From Piezodorus guildinii (Eukaryota; Arthropoda; Insecta; Hemiptera; Pentatomidae), in the NCBI GenBank assembly GCA_023052935.1, contig CM041292.1:202825799-202889798 (forward strand): DNA of 64,000 nucleotides, in the 5' to 3' direction. Shown here piece after piece: positions 1,830 to 35,445 of this stretch (the first letter of the stretch is position 1; each line of letters opens with the position of its first letter). Below the pieces are notes generated by a model. It was not told where the DNA came from. It ran no database searches and was given only the letters and a program-made list of their open reading frames with translations. A program made the translations under genes and the position numbers.

Positions 1830-4507
1830 TTACAAAACGTCGCGGGGCCACTGCCGTTTCAATCTTCGAGGAGGATTGTAGGGATGGGTGGAGCTGGAGA
1901 GCGATTGAGCAAGAGGATTAGGGTGATGAAGAAGGTTCTGATGGAATTTGGAAAATTTGGATGATACCAGGTCTAAAATAAATGGAATATTAAGGTCGTG
2001 GTGTAGGGTACAGTTGGTAACGTAATAAGGAGTATTAACTATTGTTCGAAGGACTTTGGATTGGAAGGATTGGATACGTTTGATGTTAGAATGTTTAGTT
2101 GTCCCCCATAGTTCAAGTCCGTAGGCCCATATAGGTTTCAGTACTGTCTTATATATTAGTAATTTGTTGTCGACTGTAAGATGAGATTTTCTGTCCAGTA
2201 GTTTGTATAACCGGCCGAATCTGCGGTTGAGTTCTATCCTTTTAAGTCTTGTATGTGGGTTCCACGTCAGTATTTTGTCTAGTAAAAAGTCAAGGTACCG
2301 GACTGTGTCTGAGGAAGGAAGCGGTATGGAATTGAATTTAACTGTTGGACAGGATTTACGTCGAAGGGTGAAAGTAACGTGTGTGCATTTGCTTTCGTTC
2401 ACCTTAATTCGCCAAGCCTTACACCAGTCTTCGACAAGGGAAAGGTGCCTTTGGAGATTAAGCGATGCTACTTTAGGATCGGAATCGGATGATAAAATGG
2501 CTGTGTCATCAGCAAATGTTGCCAGAAAGGTTTTGGGATCGGTAGGGATATCGGCGGTGTAGAGGATGTAGAGGACGGGTCCTAAGACGCTGCCTTGAGG
2601 AACACCGGCCTCAACAGAATAATGTTTGGAAAATTCGGAACCACAACGAACTCGGAAGGAGCGGTTTGATAAATAGGATCGGAGGATTAGGTATAAAGAT
2701 TGGGGTAAATGGGTTTTGAGCTTAAAGAGCAGTCCCGGGTGCCATACCCGGTCAAAAGCTTGAGCTATGTCCAGAAAGGCACCCGAACAATACTCCTTGC
2801 ACTCAAGGGCGGAGGAAATGTGGTCTACAACTCGGAGTCCTTGCTGAACCGTGGAATGTTGAGGACGGAATCCAAACTGGTGTGGAGGAAAATTATGAAA
2901 TTTGGCTAGGATTCGTTTTAATAGGAGTTTTTCGAAGATTTTGGAGATGATCGGAAGAAGGCTAATAGGTCTGTAGGATGACGTACAGTTGGAGGGTTTG
3001 CCTGGTTTTAGGAAAAGGATGATAGTCGAGTGTTTCCACAACAGAGGGAAATAGGTAGTGCGTAGGATACAGTTATAGATATATGTAAGGAATGTAATGG
3101 CTTTAGATGGAAGTTGTCTTAGGATTTGAGGAGTAAGGAGATCGTATCCAGGGGATTTACGGAGAGGAAGCTTTTTAAGATGATATTTTACCTCAGAGGG
3201 ATTGATTGCTTTAGGTGGTAAGGAAATTGGTATCGGTGACGTAAGGAACTCTTCAACTATTGCGGTATGGGTTGGATTGAGATCAGAATGAGGAGTGAAT
3301 ACCTTGGAAAGGTGTAGTGCGAATTCCTGGGCCCTATCTTTGTCAGAAGCAGCCCAGGAATTATCACTACGCCGGAGAGGATGGGATATCAGGGGGATTT
3401 AAGAATTCTCTTCGTGACATTCCACAAGGAATTGTCACGAGTCGAGAGAGAGGAGAGGTAGGAATTGTAGGATTGGGAACGGAAGATCGCCAACTCCCGC
3501 TTTAATTGTCTACAATAAAAGTTATAGGAGTGGCGATCTGATGGGTGACGGGTGCGTTGCCATAATGCTCTGGCTCGGCGTTTAGTGTGGATTAGGTCTA
3601 GGAGGTGTTGTGGTAAATGGTTTTTGTAAGGATTTATTTGGGAGTGCTTGGGAAAGGAGGCAGTCCAGGCGGCTTGTTGAATCGAGGTTGTAAAGGAATA
3701 GACGGCATTGTCAAGGTCAGTTCGGGTTTTGAGAGTCACTTTGAGGTCAATATCATTGGTGAGGATTTCGCGGAAGAGGTTCCAGTTGATAGGGCCTCTG
3801 ATGAATGACGGTGGGACAGGTTTAGGAATAGGTGTTAAGGATACATTTAGGATCAGTGGACTATGGTCAGAGGATAGTTCATCAAGGCGAGTTACGGAAT
3901 AGTTCAGGGAGCCTAATCCGCTGTGGATGAAGAAGTCAAGGATGTCTGGATTACGGTTAGGATCTGTTGGCCAGTAGGTAGGGGAATTGGGAGGTAGGAG
4001 ATTAAGGCGTCGGGAGTTGAGTGCAGCCTGCAATGTCCGTCCACGAGTATTTGTGGTTCTGGAACCCCATTGTTGGTGCTTGGCGTTTAGGTCTGCACCC
4101 AGAATAAAGTGATTCCCCAATGAGTTGAGGAAGCATCCAAATTGGGCAGAAGAAATGGGATGTTTAGGAGGGCAGTATGCTGATGCGATGACGAGCGGAA
4201 AAGAAAAGGTCTTGATTATAACAGGGGTGGCTTGTAGGAAGTTGTGGGCGGAAAGTGGGTGTAAGTGGGGGGAGAGGGATCGGTGGACAATGACAGCAGT
4301 ACCGGCATGGGCTTTGCCGTCTGGATGGTCTGTCCGGTATGTCGTGTATTCAGGTATTTTGAAGTACTGTTTAGTGGTTAGTCTAGTTTCAGTAATGAGT
4401 GTAACATCAACTTTTTTGTCTTGCAGTAAGGCTGTAAGTTCGTCAGTGTGAGTTCTAACACCATTCGCATTCCATAGGAGAATAGATAAGGAATTAAGTG
4501 AGGTCAT
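1830..4507 (-). pseudogene. Jockey ORF2: AP endonuclease + reverse transcriptase, one frameshift
   Basis: ORF2 would encode the target-nicking and reverse-transcribing protein, about 890 residues, normal for Jockey. The endonuclease half (4507-3389) shows WNANG, LITETR, ILGADLNAKH, LDFFI and SSDHSPL, the expected APE-type order and catalytic Asp/His positions. The RT half shows YRPISLLP, GFRPQHST, AFLDIAQAFDRVWH, GVPQGSVLGP and FADDTAIL, the last carrying the catalytic Asp pair, and ends in NPPRRLKRQWPRD, a typical Jockey C-terminus. The frame breaks once: a stop at 3389 closes the endonuclease frame, and the RT frame is open from there through its first Met at 3041. A one-base indel near 3390 explains this. 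It starts 56 bases after ORF1 ends. It could be a sequencing or assembly error in an otherwise intact copy. Confidence 0.9.
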
Positions 4508-4563
4508 TTATGGCTTTTTTATGGCAGGAATGAGATTTGATACAAGATTCGTAAGGATTCTGA

Positions 4564-5805
4564 TTAGGGCATGACAAGAGATTTGATTTCGGAAATGAAG
4601 GATGTCATCAAACTGGTAAGGTCTGTGGCATTTGAAGGAGGTGGGATATGAGAGATTTGTGGTGGATGAGGATTTTTAGGATTGATTACGTTTTGAGGAA
4701 GAGGTATTTGTTGAATGGACTGAGGATATTGAGGTACATTTTGCAGTTCCGGCAGGGCCTCGGTTTCACTACATTGGTTCCCACCTCTAAGTAAGTGGGC
4801 AAATGATACATTAGCATCGATTATTTTTGAGGGTTCTCTTCTAGTTCTTGTTTGTCTTGCTGTTTCATCCATTACTTGGGGTTTTTGATACCTGGTCCTT
4901 AGTTCCTTATAGATTTGGCATCCTTTGTAGTTGGCCGGGTGGTCCTTGAGGCAATGAGCACATACAGCGGGTGTTGACTTCGGTTTTGTACATTCCACAG
5001 ACTTGTGCTGTTCACCGCATTTCACGCAGCGTGGTATGTGATAACAGTAACTTTTGGTATGACCATACGCCTGACAATTGTGACATTGAACAATTTCTCT
5101 CTTGGTGTAAGGTTTTTCGACTTTTACACTTGTATAGTACAGTCTTTTTAGATCATAAATTTGTTCTACCCCTGACAATGGTTCCAAGTCAACGAAGAAT
5201 AGCGGAAGTTGAACCCTATCTTTTATGACATTAGTGACTTGGCGCACTTTGTAACCCATCTCCATAAGTTCTTCTTTGATTGCTTCAACTGGTGTAGAAG
5301 AATGTAGATTTCTTATTACAACTCTAAGAGATCTCTCTTGGCGTAACTGATAAGTGTGGAAATCCGCTTTAGTATCAGTTAGATATTTCACTATTTTTCT
5401 ATACGTCTCGGCGGTGGTCGGTGATATTTTGGTATCATTGATTCTACTCATACAGTAGTAGCTGGAGGAGTCGGTAATTTTATTCAATTGAGCACACAAC
5501 AACTGAAAATTTTTAATATTTTTGACAAATATCGGTGGAGGCCGTGGTTCACTGGGTGTAGGAGCAGATTCCATGTTTTCTTTTTCATTATGTAGGATTT
5601 GAAAAGGATTTGGGGTGAAAAACGGAGATTCGTCAGTCATCCCTTGTGACGATGTGCCAGGTTGTGGTTCAGATTCGGTATTAGTACCTGAAGGGGTTCC
5701 TTGCTGATTTAATTTTTTATTGGTATCACGGCGGGGTCTTTGTTTTATGGGAGGCGTGATTGAACCACTAGATCTAGATCTTTTAGTTGATGCTTTGGAG
5801 GACAT
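4564..5805 (-). CDS. Jockey ORF1: gag-like zinc-knuckle protein
   Basis: ORF1 is the nucleic-acid-binding protein of the retrotransposon and is expected to coat its RNA. The N-terminal ~90 residues are Ser/Thr/Pro/Lys-rich and probably disordered. The middle carries the PRE_C2HC-type region (VVIRNLHSSTPVEAIKEEL, then MGYKVRQVTNV). Near residues 245-290 there are three consecutive knuckles, CX2CX4HX4C, CX2CX3HX4C and CX2CX3HX6C. The frame is open upstream to a Met at 5877, but I place the start at the internal MSSKAS (5805): the preceding stretch is hydrophobic and unlike Jockey gags. Intact, about 413 residues. It precedes ORF2 on the same strand, which is translated from the same RNA in this clade. 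Confidence 0.88.
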   Translation of the reverse strand: MSSKASTKRSRSSGSITPPIKQRPRRDTNKKLNQQGTPSGTNTESEPQPGTSSQGMTDESPFFTPNPFQILHNEKENMESAPTPSEPRPPPIFVKNIKNFQLLCAQLNKITDSSSYYCMSRINDTKISPTTAETYRKIVKYLTDTKADFHTYQLRQERSLRVVIRNLHSSTPVEAIKEELMEMGYKVRQVTNVIKDRVQLPLFFVDLEPLSGVEQIYDLKRLYYTSVKVEKPYTKREIVQCHNCQAYGHTKSYCYHIPRCVKCGEQHKSVECTKPKSTPAVCAHCLKDHPANYKGCQIYKELRTRYQKPQVMDETARQTRTRREPSKIIDANVSFAHLLRGGNQCSETEALPELQNVPQYPQSIQQIPLPQNVINPKNPHPPQISHIPPPSNATDLTSLMTSFISEIKSLVMP

Positions 5806-6194
5806 CACTTGGTGAAAATATCGCATTTCATGTGAAGAAGATAATAAGATAATAACTAGATGTGGAAAATAAAACAATAACTAAAGAAAAGAAAACCAAT
5901 CCCGGCCTTGCCGTGCTATTGGCAATCAGCTGATGTGAAGAGGTTACCCAGCATTCACTTTACACCGTAAATTGTAACAAAACTTACTGTTTTTTGCTCC
6001 AATATTTACTGCAGTTGTTATCCTGAAGCCTGGTGATGTTTTCAAGATTGCACTGAAGTGAATTCCAACTGAAAAAGCAAGAAATCCAAGAGACGATTTG
6101 AATGATGACTGCTATACTCATGCGCATGCGCAGAACTCTCAAACAATATTAATTAATGTTTTTACTTTCACTCACCTGTATATAAAATAGATAA

Positions 6195-8534: not shown

Positions 8535-9462
8535 TTTTTTCAGTCGAATTCATAATTTTTTTAGTCAAATTCATAATTTTTTCAGTCAAATTCATATTTG
8601 TTTTCAGTCAATTTCATAATTTCTTGTACCCATTTTATACAGTTAATATAATGAGCTTTTGCTACCAAGAACTTAACATTTTTATTAAATCTTGTTGTTG
8701 TTTATCCATTTAACGTCACTTTATGTTACTGTGCTTAATCCGACGGTGCAGCGGGAGTCTTTAAGTTTTGCCTACCCAGGTTTACTTAAGATAGGGATCT
8801 TTTACGATTTCCACTTTTTAAATCTTTTAAGAGTCACCTGTGGTGCACAAATATAGGGCCATCTGCTGGTTTTGAACTTACGACCTTAAGCATAGAGAGC
8901 TGTTATGGCTAGCCACTACTCCACAGGTGAACCTTTATGCATTCAGCAAGGTGTTAAAGATTAATATCCCCAAGGTCACTGGTTCAGACCGGGCAGATTC
9001 AAATACCTTGTTGAATGCATTGAGGGTCACCTGTGGAGTAGTGGCTAGCATAACAGCATTCTATGCTTAAGGTCGCAAGTCCAAAACCAGCAGATCGCCC
9101 TATATTTGTGCACCACAGGTGACTCTTAAAAGATTTAAAAAGTGGAAATCGTAAAAGATCTTAAGTAAACCTGGATAGGCAAAACTTAAAGACTCCCGCT
9201 GCACCGTCGGATTAAGCACAGTAACATAAAGTGACGTTAAATGGATAAACAACAACAAGATATGATAAAAATGTTAAGTTCATGGTTGCAAAACCTCATT
9301 AAATTGACTGTATATAATGGGTACAAGAAATTATGAAATTGACTGAAAATATTATGAATTTGATTGAAAAAATTATGAATTTGACTGAAAAAATTATGAA
9401 TTTGACTGAAAAAATTATGAATTTGACTGAAAAAATTATGAATTTGACTGAAAAAAGCTATA
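8535..9462. mobile_element. Large foldback: inverted SINE dimer with tandem-repeat ends
   Basis: Two ~400-base arms are inverted copies of each other around a short spacer (~8936-9009). Each arm holds, from outside in, tandem ATGAATTTGACTGAAAAA-type repeats, an AT-rich segment, and a SINE-1-related copy (minus at ~8690-8935, plus at ~9010-9260) with GTAGTGGCTAGCATAAC and a degenerate B box GGTCGCAAGTCC. Both outer ends read through AGCTATA into interrupted HINE-like sequence. Arms built of tandem repeats are a known feature of Foldback-type transposons. Confidence 0.75.
9330..9455 (+). repeat. ~21-bp tandem repeat, right arm of foldback
   Basis: About six units of ATTATGAATTTGACTGAAAAA run head to tail; the first two vary by single bases. 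An inverted, more diverged set lies at ~8540-8615 in the left arm. Because 21 is a multiple of three the array reads as a repeating peptide (MNLTEKI), but nothing supports it as a gene. Confidence 0.85.
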
Positions 9463-17539: not shown

Positions 17540-19190
17540 TGTAATTAGTTGACCGTTGAGAATTAATGCAAGGAATTAGTCCGGGTGGCGGTCATTAAAT
17601 GAAACAACTAAATAGTTTCAACTATTTTATTGTTTGCCAACGTTTCGACCCCCTTTGTGGGTCATCATCAGAGCTTTTTAGAACTAGAAGTGTGGTGATG
17701 AGAAGAGCGTGAGTCTCCTGAAGGTGTAGAAATGATGGCTTGTTGAGATGAGAATGCCTGCTGTTGTTGAGATGTAGATAGTATGTCCTGCTTGCGATTT
17801 TGTATTCTGGCGCTGCGGCGGAGAGTTGAGGAGGATGTATCTTTTTGTTGTTCCCGTGTTCTTTTTATCATTGTGGATGTAATTAGTTGACCGTTGAGAA
17901 TTAATGCAAGGAATTAGTCCGGGTGGCGGTCATTAAATGAAACAACTAAATAGTTTCAACTATTTATTGTTTGCCAACGTTTCGACCCCCTTTGTGGGTC
18001 ATCATCAGGGCTTTTTAGAACTAGAAGTGTGGTGATGAGAAGAGCGTGAGTCTCCTGAAGGTGTAGAAATGATGGCTTGTTGAGATGAGAATGCCTGCTG
18101 TTGTTGAGATGTAGATATATGTCCTGCTTGCGATTTTGTATTCTGGCGCTGCGGCGGAGAGTTGAAGAGGATGTATCTTTTTGTTGTTCCCGTGTTCTTA
18201 TCATCATTATGGATATAATTAGTTGACCGTTGAGAATTAATGCAAGGAATTAGTCCGGGTGGTTTCAACTATTTATTGTTTGCCAACGTTTCGACCCTCT
18301 TTGTGGGTCATTATCAGGGCTTTTTAGAACTAGAAGTGTGGTGATGAGAAGAGCGTGAGTCTCCTGAAGGTGTAGAAATGATGGCTTGTTGAGATGAGAA
18401 TGCCTGCTGTTGTTGAGATGTAGATAGTATGTCCTGCTTGCGATTTTGTATTCTGGCGCTGCGGCGGAGAGTTGAGGAGGATGTATCTTTTTGTTGTTCC
18501 CGTGTTCTTTTATCATTGTGGATGTAATTAGTTGACCGTTGAGAATTAATGCAAGGAATAGTCCGGTGGCGGTCATTAAATGAACAACTAATAGTTTCAA
18601 CTATTTATTGTTTGCCAACGTTTCGACCCCTTTGTGGGTCATCATCAGGGCTTTTTAGAACTAGAAGTGTGGTGATGAGAAGAGCGTGAGTCTCCTGAAG
18701 GTGTAGAAATGATGGCTTGTTGAGATGAGAATGCCTGCTGTTGTTGAGATGTAGATATATGTCCTGCTTGCGATTTTGTATTCTGGCGCTGCGGCGGAGA
18801 GTTGAAGAGGATGTATCTTTTTGTTGTTCCCGTGTTCTTATCATCATTATGGATATAATTAGTTGACCGTTGAGAATTAATGCAAGGAATTAGTCCGGGT
18901 GGTTTCAACTATTTATTGTTTGCCAACGTTTCGACCCTCTTTGTGGGTCATTATCAGGGCTTTTTAGAACTAGAAGTGTGGTGATGAGAAGAGCGTGAGT
19001 CTCCTGAAGGTGTAAGCCATCATTTCTACACCTTCAGGTGACTCACGCTCTTCTCATCACCACACTTCTAGTTCTAAAAAGCCCTGATGATGACCCACAA
19101 AGAGGGTCGAAACGTTGGCAAACAATAAATAGTTGAAACTATTTAGTTGTTTCATTTAATGACCGCCACCCGGACTAATTCCTTGCATTA
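17540..19190. repeat. Tandem array of ~310/335-bp units with terminal inverted unit; hammerhead-like cores
   Basis: The word GTTTGCCAACGTTTCGACC starts at 17632, 17969, 18278, 18610 and 18918, giving periods 337, 309, 332 and 308: long and short units alternate. Short units lack GGCGGTCATTAAATG to AACTAAATA. Two long+short pairs (starting 17969 and 18610) are nearly identical, a ~641-bp higher-order repeat. At about 19017 the sequence turns round and runs as an inverted partial unit to 19186, ending in poly(A). Each unit contains GTTGACCGTTGAGAA and, on the minus strand, CTGATGATGACCC...GGGTCGAAACG. Open frames on the minus strand are by-products. Probably tandem terminal repeats of a Penelope-like element (inference). 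Confidence 0.85.
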
Positions 19191-32853: not shown

Positions 32854-33490
32854 TTAAAACCAGCATATTTTTTTTTCCTTCCATCATCTTTTTCTTTGTT
32901 TAGTTATTTAACGTCACTTTATGCTACTATGGCTAATTGGACGAAGCTACAATGGGAGTTCTAAATTTTGCCTATCCAGGTTTTATTAGGTTAGGGATCT
33001 TTAATGAGTACCTGACATCGCACAGGCTCGGGACCACCTTTTAACGCCTTCTCTGAAGGACGGCATAACAAAGGAATTTTTACTCCCCATTAAAAATCCT
33101 AGGACCACCTGCGGGTTTGAACCCGTGAAATTTGGCTTAGGAGGCTGTTATGCTAACCACCCAGCTACAAGTGATCCCTAATCATCTTTTTTATTATTAT
33201 CAAACCATTCGTCAAATATAGTCAACGTTTCGGGACGTTTTCCCCATTATAATGATTTTTTTTATTGATATATATTATTTCCTTTAGCTGACTGCTACAT
33301 CCACTTATAAACACAGTGAGCCAATAGTCAACTTTTATAAGTTGATGTAGCAGTGTTATGTATATGTATAAATAAAAAGTCTTGATAATGGGGAAAAAGC
33401 CCCGAAACGATAACTATATTTGACGAATTGTATAATAATGATGATAAAAAAGATGTTGGAAGAAAAAAAAATTGTGCTGGTTTTAATATG
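32854..33490. mobile_element. Foldback element interrupted by a SINE
   Basis: The left arm (32854-32897 and 33178-33262) is the inverse of the right arm (~33380-33490): shared words are TTAAAACCAGCA, CATCTTTTT, ATTCGTCAAATATAGT and CCCCATTAT. Each arm has a structured core; on the plus strand the right one reads TTGATAATGGGG, AAAAAG, CCCCGAAACG. The loop (33263-33380) also contains a small inverted repeat around AACTTTTATAAGTTG. A SINE is inserted in the left arm. The right end approaches the 3' end of the host gene. Confidence 0.75.
32898..33177 (-). mobile_element. SINE-1 inserted in the foldback's left arm
   Basis: Complete minus-strand copy: CGGGTTTGAACCCG (B box) at ~33112-33128, body blocks GGTCCCGAG-like, GGCAAAATTTAGAACTCCC and AGTGACGTTAAATAAC, A/C-rich 3' tail at the left. 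ATCATCTTTTT on both sides is the likely target duplication. Confidence 0.8.
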
Positions 33491-33577
33491 AATATATGTA
33501 TTATATTTATAAATTATTAGTTAATTGATTATGTACACTTTACATTCTTGTTTACGTCTCATACTGATGCCACGAAA

Positions 33578-33724
33578 TCAATTCTTCAGGTTATAGTTGA
33601 TGGTCATTCTTGTATCTTGAGAAATATTATTATTTACAAAGTACATCCTAGCTCTCCGCAAAGACAGGTACGTCCAGAGCATGTAGATATAGAAGGCTGT
33701 CAGTATGAGGAACAGTAATTGCTA
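33578..33724 (-). other. Leaky-stop candidate and in-frame transmembrane extension
   Basis: The exon's TAG (33722-33724) is followed by CAA TTA, matching the UAG-CAR-YYA readthrough context first defined in tobacco mosaic virus. The same frame stays open for 47 codons to TGA at 33578-33580. It encodes LLFLILTAFYIYMLWTYL, a transmembrane-length hydrophobic run, then SLRRAR, a basic stop-transfer pattern, and a short polar tail. Its codons keep the G/C-ending preference of the exon over the hydrophobic part. Readthrough would give a type I membrane form with the Pro/Thr/Ser region as stalk. Alternatives: a CAG-to-TAG nonsense change or sequence error in a gene that always encodes the anchor, or unseen splicing. 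Confidence 0.6.
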
Positions 33725-34699
33725 TATTGGTGGAGATGGGGCCAGCTTCTTTTCTTCCTCGAGCTCTTCCACTTCCGCAGGACTTGAGGTCGTCGATGCG
33801 GAAATCTCTTCCGCCATGGTTGGTGGAGTCTGAAGGACCACTTCCGGTTGGCCGTAAGTAGGCAATTCTTCAAAGACGGTACTGTTGTCCGTAAAGTCGG
33901 TTGGTGTTGTTGTCAATTCCTGTTCTTCGGTGGTTGGTGGAGGGCATGATGGTGGTTGTGGTGAGGTTTTGGATTGTTCAGGACTTTCTGAAGTTAGAGA
34001 AGGTTGTGTTGTTTCCGTAGTATTTTTCGCGACCTCAGGTAGTGTGGGGATAGCGCTGGGTGGTGGTGTTATTGGAACTGGTTTGAGGATCGTGGACGGT
34101 TGGGATATCTCTTGCTGTTCGTTCGGGACCTGAGTGTGATTTATAGCTCTGATGCGATGGCTCACTTTCTTCCCCGATAGGAAAGCAGAGAGGTCAGCTT
34201 CGAGGATCCAAGTCCTTCCTGTATCACCTACGGCATGAAGAGGGTCGCCCAAACCTCCTGCATCCCTCTGCTTGAAGGTTTTTCTATTGAGGTCCCTTTG
34301 CGTGTTCCAGGTGTACAGTCTCTGAGACCCGGATACCCTGAACAAGATGTTCCTGCCCTCCCTCCCGATGAGGATCACTCCAGGAGGCTTGGAACCCACT
34401 TTCCGCACCAGACCCCTTTCGTCCCTCGTGTTCATGACGTACATGTCAGGGCTCTTGTAGAAGGTAAAGTAGAGGTTGCTGGGAGGAACCAGCGAGAGGT
34501 AGAGGACATCGGAGGGGTGAGAGACCGCCCTGGGGAGCAGAAGTCTCCTGCCTCGGCCGCTGGCCACGTCCCAGACCGCGATGCACCTCGAAGGACCGTC
34601 GCTGATGTACAGTCGTTCAGGACCTGTCAAAGACTCTTCCACCTCCAGGAACTGCGCGCGGCCTCGTACAAGGCCGTCCAAGGGAATGGTCTGCTTTAT
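33722..34699 (-). CDS. Yellow/MRJP-family protein, terminal exon (host gene)
   Basis: This is the only host gene I can support. Yellow/MRJP proteins are usually secreted beta-propeller proteins of arthropods; some affect pigmentation, but this member's function is unknown. The exon follows a splice acceptor (TTTCAG, G at 34700) and keeps frame IKQTIPLDG. Family-type blocks in order: RLYISDGPSRCIAVWDV, DVLYLSLVPPSNLYFTFYKS, KPPGVILIGREGRNILFRV, LYTWNTQ and DTGRTWILEADLSAFLSG. From about residue 200 a Pro/Thr/Ser/Glu-rich stalk follows with possible N-glycosylation sites NHT, NTT and NST. Codons are G/C-rich against AT-rich flanks. The Met in the polypyrimidine tract (34708) is intronic, not a start. 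Upstream exons were not found here. The frame stops at TAG, then continues open (next feature). Confidence 0.85.
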   Translation of the reverse strand: MKQTIPLDGLVRGRAQFLEVEESLTGPERLYISDGPSRCIAVWDVASGRGRRLLLPRAVSHPSDVLYLSLVPPSNLYFTFYKSPDMYVMNTRDERGLVRKVGSKPPGVILIGREGRNILFRVSGSQRLYTWNTQRDLNRKTFKQRDAGGLGDPLHAVGDTGRTWILEADLSAFLSGKKVSHRIRAINHTQVPNEQQEISQPSTILKPVPITPPPSAIPTLPEVAKNTTETTQPSLTSESPEQSKTSPQPPSCPPPTTEEQELTTTPTDFTDNSTVFEELPTYGQPEVVLQTPPTMAEEISASTTSSPAEVEELEEEKKLAPSPPI

Positions 34700-34713
34700 C
34701 TGAAACATGAAAA
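34700..34713 (-). promoter_or_regulatory. 3' splice acceptor of the MRJP-family terminal exon
   Basis: The minus strand reads TTTTCATGTTTCAG then the exon. The pyrimidine-rich tract plus CAG fits an acceptor, and family similarity begins right after it. The upstream intron sequence is AT-rich. Confidence 0.7.
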
Positions 34714-34719
34714 TCGAAA

Positions 34720-35445
34720 TTAGTGAATGCTATAAAAAGTTTAACAGTTACATTAAATTAGTATAGTTTTAACATTGTAAGTTATTTTCAAAAATAATAC
34801 TAGAATATAAAAGATTTGTTGATGGAGTTTGAAAGTATTACATCAAACCAGAAAAACATCTTCCATGTTAGTGACTAGTTGCCTAAATAAACAAGTATGT
34901 GAGGAGTTAAATTTGTATACAATAAAAGATAATCATCCATTATCAACTAGTCAATTACACTGACAATCTAGGATTAGGAAAGTGTTAAACTTTAGAAATG
35001 ATACTCAACTTAAAATTTCATTAGCTAAGAAGCCAAGGCCATGTCAGTTTACAACAATTTTTTATTTTTATTTTCTAATTTTACAATGGGTAGTTTTTTC
35101 TCAAGAGTTTTTCATGACTTTTTATAATCATTCTAAATATTTACTTATTGTGTTATTCAATACAGTTGTGTTTAAATGTTACAATATGAATTTAATATTT
35201 TAAATTATTTAAATATTAATTATTTTATTTAAATAATTATAATAATTAATTATTTAAATATAAATTATTTAATATTAAATTAAAATAATTTTAATAATAC
35301 TATCAAGTTATTATAATTTATTATTTTATTCTAAATCGTTTGAAAATATTTGTTAAATACACTTAATTAATTAATTATTACCTCATTTTAAACATCATTT
35401 TAGTGTTTTGATAGTACCTTAATTTCAGTTTTAAATTTATTTTTA
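34720..35445. other. Intron or upstream region of the host gene, no exon seen
   Basis: AT-rich, with dense AATTATTTAAATA repeats at ~35200-35300. No second MRJP-like exon could be found here. Confidence 0.4.

Follow-up and report, generated by a model that had tools for sequence, protein, structure and literature searches.

The TMV-type leaky stop has the consensus UAG-CAR-YYA, and members of the Yellow/MRJP family are normally secreted proteins. Stop-codon readthrough is abundant in insects, with more than 600 readthrough stops estimated in the mosquito and 900 in the fruit fly; among fly and mosquito genes TAA and TAG stops have lost readthrough more often than TGA stops, and RNA structures are enriched after the fly readthrough stops (PMC5100048). 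Table 2 of a second study gives eight Drosophila extensions with predicted transmembrane domains, those of CG4230, CG13163, Fit1, RhoBTB, CG1172, Nplp2, CG33523 and Ark (PMC3840789).

The locus described here lies on the minus strand of a 64,000-nucleotide stretch of a 1.2 Gb insect genome (C1:202825799-202889798), referred to below as the window. The last exon of a Yellow/MRJP-type gene ends at a TAG, and the frame continues beyond it into a hydrophobic segment. We regard programmed readthrough of this UAG as the best reading of the sequence, and a probable one.

The terminal exon and its Yellow/MRJP kinship

The last exon opens at a phase-0 acceptor, TTTCAG/ATAAAG (34700/34699), with its first base at 34699, and its frame stays open to the TAG. 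The first part of the exon (34142–34699) encodes the C-terminal half of a Yellow/MRJP-type domain (IKQTIPLDGL...SHRIRAI), recognised by identity to a paralogue and to two relatives, with a lower boundary drawn by us. Next comes a fast-evolving stalk rich in Pro, Thr and Ser (33725–34141), defined by alignment of three proteins; its C-terminal end has the form KKL(A/V)PSPPI and reads KKLAPSPPI immediately before the TAG in this exon.

By itself the last exon has no Pfam match, and no solved structure related to it was found. It aligns with the paralogue L007 by BLASTP (E 5e-18, 30% identity), and L007 in turn matches the MRJP profile at E 1e-23; an hhalign comparison of the exon profile with four of its own paralogues was not significant (probability 0.9%, E 0.064). 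The two relatives from the protein database, P0001 and P0002, fall below the cut-off against MRJP (E 0.27 and 0.17). The exon L014, which shares the strand and lies about 62 kb upstream, matches MRJP positions 2–46 with 30.1 bits (cut-off 19.8), and its 3′ end, GGT GGG/GTAAGT, is in phase 0 and compatible with joining to the window exon. Because strand, phase and domain order agree, we assign L014 to the same gene, as its likely preceding exon (exon 2). By eye, none of the open frames within 5 kb upstream of exon 2 was recognisable as a first exon with a signal peptide. The earlier note had placed the gene in the MRJP family, a placement that stands by way of the upstream exon and the paralogue but draws no Pfam match from the window exon. 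As judged from these sequence comparisons, the gene encodes a divergent protein of the Yellow/MRJP type that carries a Pro/Thr/Ser stalk.

The genome contains 15 matches to PF03022. Around the window, Yellow/MRJP exons of either strand form a cluster (L007, L009, L010 and L012–L014; C1:202744982-203039916), within which L013/L007 lie on the opposite strand, upstream of the readthrough-candidate gene. Elsewhere in the window, two arrays of 21-nt units at 8535–8622 and 9328–9456 are separated by about 700 bases, and their consensus units look like mutual reverse complements. A 309-nt unit is repeated 3.4 times with 91% matches at 17953–19014, its successive copies carrying similar minus-strand open frames. 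Minus-strand open frames at 1830–5880 resemble a non-LTR retrotransposon by eye, with a putative reverse transcriptase at 1830–3398, an endonuclease at 3389–4507 and a gag-like frame at 4564–5880.

The in-frame extension beyond the TAG

The first stop, TAG at 33722–33724, is followed by CAATTA (33721–33716), an instance of CARYYA. From there the frame remains open for 47 sense codons (33581–33721), encoding QLLFLILTAFYIYMLWTYLSLRRARMYFVNNNISQDTRMTINYNLKN, up to a second stop, TGA, at 33578–33580. The extension reads, in order, QLLFLILTAFYIYMLWTYL, SLRRAR and MYFVNNNISQDTRMTINYNLKN. It contains an 18-residue hydrophobic run, LLFLILTAFYIYMLWTYL (33665–33718), with a Kyte-Doolittle mean of 1.94 over the 18 residues, followed by SLRRAR (33647–33664), a basic segment resembling a stop-transfer motif. 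Across these 141 nt, each of the two remaining sense frames contains four stops. The earlier note had listed the TAG, the CAA TTA, the 47 open codons, the hydrophobic run and SLRRAR, and all of these were verified on the minus strand. An ATTAAA at 33482–33487, about 90 bases beyond the TGA, is predicted as a possible poly(A) signal; we take it to be a candidate motif whose use would keep the extension within the mRNA. About 125 nt beyond the TGA lies a MITE-like imperfect inverted repeat of 94 nt (33181–33454; arms 79% complementary and 86 nt apart), whose inner hairpin at 33293–33352 scores 26.8 bits against mir-4079, far under the gathering score of 62.

An open frame of this kind was compared with a null set of 38,021 stop triplets from both strands of 290 kb of the host genome (20 spaced 10-kb pieces, two window parts and three adjoining pieces), using criteria chosen after the feature had been seen. 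At least 46 open codons followed 1,794 of these stops, an equally hydrophobic 18-mer occurred within the first 30 residues after 490, and 101 combined the two. Equal GC3 in 26 open codons after the stop was found in 49 cases and CARYYA in 74, or 1 in 514, in line with the figure of about one in 500 given in the earlier note. Length, hydrophobicity and GC3 coincided at only one of the 38,021 stops, and at none when CARYYA was added. Within the window, the TAG-CARYYA motif by itself is no rarity: it occurs four times against 4.02 expected from shuffles.

Codon composition divides the extension into two parts. The first 26 codons have a GC3 of 0.69 (GC1 and GC2 are 0.35 each) and the last 21 one of 0.38; upstream of the TAG, the exon as a whole has 0.57, and its final 130 codons, which make up the stalk, have 0.41. 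In a test that conditions on the amino acids and takes an assumed AT-rich background (GC 0.26) as its reference, the first 26 codons gave a GC3 count of 15/23 against 5.8 expected (P 0.00015), and the last 21 gave 7/20, with no excess (P 0.21). Since the excess is present in the first 26 codons and absent from the last 21, the coding-like signal covers the anchor and the basic motif but does not reach the tail; locally higher GC content could be behind part of it. The earlier observation of G/C-ending codons thus holds for the start of the extension and fails for its end and for the stalk. On these measures the extension looks coding-like over its first 26 codons, and its combined length, hydrophobicity and GC3 go beyond what chance would produce.

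These data bear directly on the alternative that translation ends in the ordinary way at the TAG and that the downstream frame is either a chance opening or a relic, left by an anchor that disappeared before the three related proteins diverged. The last 21 codons, lacking coding bias, would suit such a frame, and simulation indicates that an unselected frame can stay open for some time: at an assumed distance of 0.1 substitutions per site it survived in 1,987 of 4,000 runs without indels and 879 of 4,000 with them, and at an assumed 0.3 substitutions per site in 801 and 243 of 4,000, respectively. Chance, however, has to account for a combination of length, hydrophobicity and GC3 seen at a single stop in the null set, and in a relic the GC3 excess should fade in the AT-rich setting, yet it persists in the first 26 codons. 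We therefore consider ordinary termination with a relic or chance frame rather unlikely.

The anchor was also examined in an AlphaFold2 model built from three sequences, in which Gln takes the place of the TAG. The model is weak overall (mean pLDDT 44), but residues 325–372 were built as a helix, and ten-residue pLDDT blocks of 94 and 89 cover residues 331–350, a span reaching from the middle of the hydrophobic run into the residues beyond it; this anchor helix is the sole stretch of the model with ten-residue blocks above 70. The hydrophobic run with its 18-residue Kyte-Doolittle mean, the basic SLRRAR flank and the confident helix together predict a single-pass (type I) membrane segment, and the position of SLRRAR would fit a topology with the N-terminus outside and the C-terminus inside.

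The shared stop position and other routes to an anchored form

In a database of 5.8 billion proteins, two relatives, P0001 and P0002, emerged from 5,029 scored candidates; a profile search that scored its best 7,999 candidates gave this pair again and none further. Over domain residues 26–186 the exon is 87% identical to P0002 and 91% to P0001, and all three proteins fall between 87% and 91%. In the stalk (residues 187–283) identity among the three is 26–40% with 12–52 gap columns, residues 284–312 are identical at 13–18 of 27 positions, and the last 13 residues match at 9, 9 and 12 positions. Both relatives terminate in KKLVPSPPI at the residue that precedes the TAG, as read from their predicted protein ends and not from stop triplets. 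Their source contigs are 1,018 and 1,671 bases long, and a contig edge cutting both at the same residue is unlikely. Because the proteins share this end despite a stalk that has diverged to 26–40% identity, we conclude that the stop is old.

Conservation of the stop position was one half of the check that the earlier note had set for programmed readthrough, the other half being conservation of the frame beyond it, and two of the two relatives found agree in the stop position. The same result tells against the alternative that the note ranked first, in which CAG mutated recently to TAG or the TAG is a sequencing error. Such an event would require only one base to differ, but P0001 and P0002 end at the same residue, which nearly excludes it and leaves it with a very low probability. 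A shared stop is nevertheless equally expected of an ordinary gene, as of any normal stop, and is no proof of readthrough by itself; to that extent it also favours ordinary termination with a relic or chance frame. Searched alone against the protein database, the extension returned no candidate, a weak test at 47 residues. Among viral contigs 94 stretches fitted the pattern of the relatives and none was confirmed, none of 48 pattern matches in genome contigs was confirmed, and the conserved C-terminus had no match in either of two pattern scans.

An anchored isoform could also arise by splicing if the AG of the TAG served as a 3′ splice site, with an intron ending at 33722 that joins upstream coding sequence in frame to CAATTACTG... 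and so dispenses with readthrough. The site, TATAG/C, is preceded by a C-rich pyrimidine stretch, and with crude scoring matrices it ranks in the top 7% of AGs on the minus strand of the window (214 of 3,026 score at least as well, itself counted) and among 5 of 71 within the exon, again counting itself. Phase 0 is shared by the two best in-exon donors, AAA/GTGAGC at 34165 and AAA/GTGGGT at 34399, and by the end of exon 2, and so the frame would fit a spliced isoform. By the same matrices, however, the TAG acceptor scores 2.1 against 7.7 and 5.0 for the inferred acceptors of exons 2 and 3, and the best in-exon donor 3.4 against 5.6 for the exon-2 donor. Splicing at this position would further need a stop codon, a reading frame and an acceptor to coincide, and the supposed intron is the stalk, whose coding frame is preserved in three relatives. 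These considerations make splicing an improbable explanation, though still a live one.

Editing was considered as a further means of passing the stop, in that A-to-I conversion would turn UAG into UIG, read as Trp, and extend the protein. The neighbours of the UAG presumably suit ADAR, and a weak 14-nt pair (33310–33323 / 34158–34171, 86% complementary) holds the stop inside its 834-nt loop. No stable fold was found around the stop, though, and none of the four inverted-repeat pairs in 32900–34800 has an arm that covers it. With neither a repeat arm nor a fold over the stop, editing was set aside as highly implausible.

Two variants of stop-codon decoding were also rejected. Folding of the RNA downstream of the stop gave z +0.99, with 171 of 200 shuffles equally or more stable, and in the absence of structured RNA there we set aside readthrough driven by RNA structure. 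Selenocysteine insertion is ruled out by the codon, which is TAG and not TGA.

Programmed readthrough would be the simplest route by which the stalk and the anchor could be joined, because the frame is the same, nothing is lost and the context is leaky. Several points weigh against it: no stem-loop follows the stop, although fly readthrough stops are enriched for such structures; the last 21 codons look neutral; the search with the extension came back empty, weak as that test is; and TAG is among the stops at which fly and mosquito genes more readily lose readthrough. We propose that most ribosomes would terminate at the UAG and release a soluble protein, and that a minor share would decode UAG-CAA-UUA by means of a near-cognate tRNA and add the 47 residues. 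The first 25 of these would form a single-pass transmembrane helix with its basic stop-transfer motif, and the readthrough product would be a type I membrane-anchored form carried on the stalk. Whether an old, shared stop of the UAG-CARYYA type sets release against membrane tethering of this Yellow-family protein, as a translational switch between soluble and anchored forms, seems to us an evenly balanced question. The idea of a secreted form and a readthrough-anchored form, put forward in the earlier note, gains from the shared stop and from the coding-like and transmembrane signals, and is weakened by the competing possibility of splicing to the TAG acceptor.

Comparison with known readthrough systems

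If the proposal is true, a single leaky stop determines whether a Yellow-type protein can diffuse away or is kept at the cell surface. This would have consequences for the distance from the producing cell over which Yellow-type proteins act, and insect readthrough genes would gain a clear transmembrane-adding case in the UAG-CARYYA context. That context agrees with the TMV-type stop in its consensus and differs in setting, which in TMV is a viral replicase. Within the Yellow/MRJP family (PF03022), the upstream exon lies above the cut-off, and a paralogue that matches the family is a homologue of the window exon. The gene differs from its family in its long Pro/Thr/Ser stalk and possible anchor; no in-frame extension of at least 18 residues follows any of the five paralogue open frames, from the 15 family matches, that were taken as terminal exons.

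Like the readthrough genes described in Drosophila and Anopheles, the locus has an in-frame extension after a conserved stop, and some of the extensions in those insects carry targeting signals (PMC5100048, PMC3840789). In those accounts TGA is enriched among the ancient insect cases, whereas the stop here is UAG-CARYYA and is not followed by RNA structure. The described genes also display conservation of the extension and ribosome footprints, while the present case is known from its own sequence and from the protein ends of its relatives. Further counterparts are the eight Drosophila transmembrane extensions, in which readthrough would likewise add a membrane segment. As tabulated, none of the eight is named as a Yellow gene, and six of them are negative in a score column that we take to be PhyloCSF, whereas codon use looks coding in the first 26 codons of the extension described here (PMC3840789). 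Readthrough that adds a transmembrane segment is thus a kind of event already known, of which a Yellow-type protein may be a new case.
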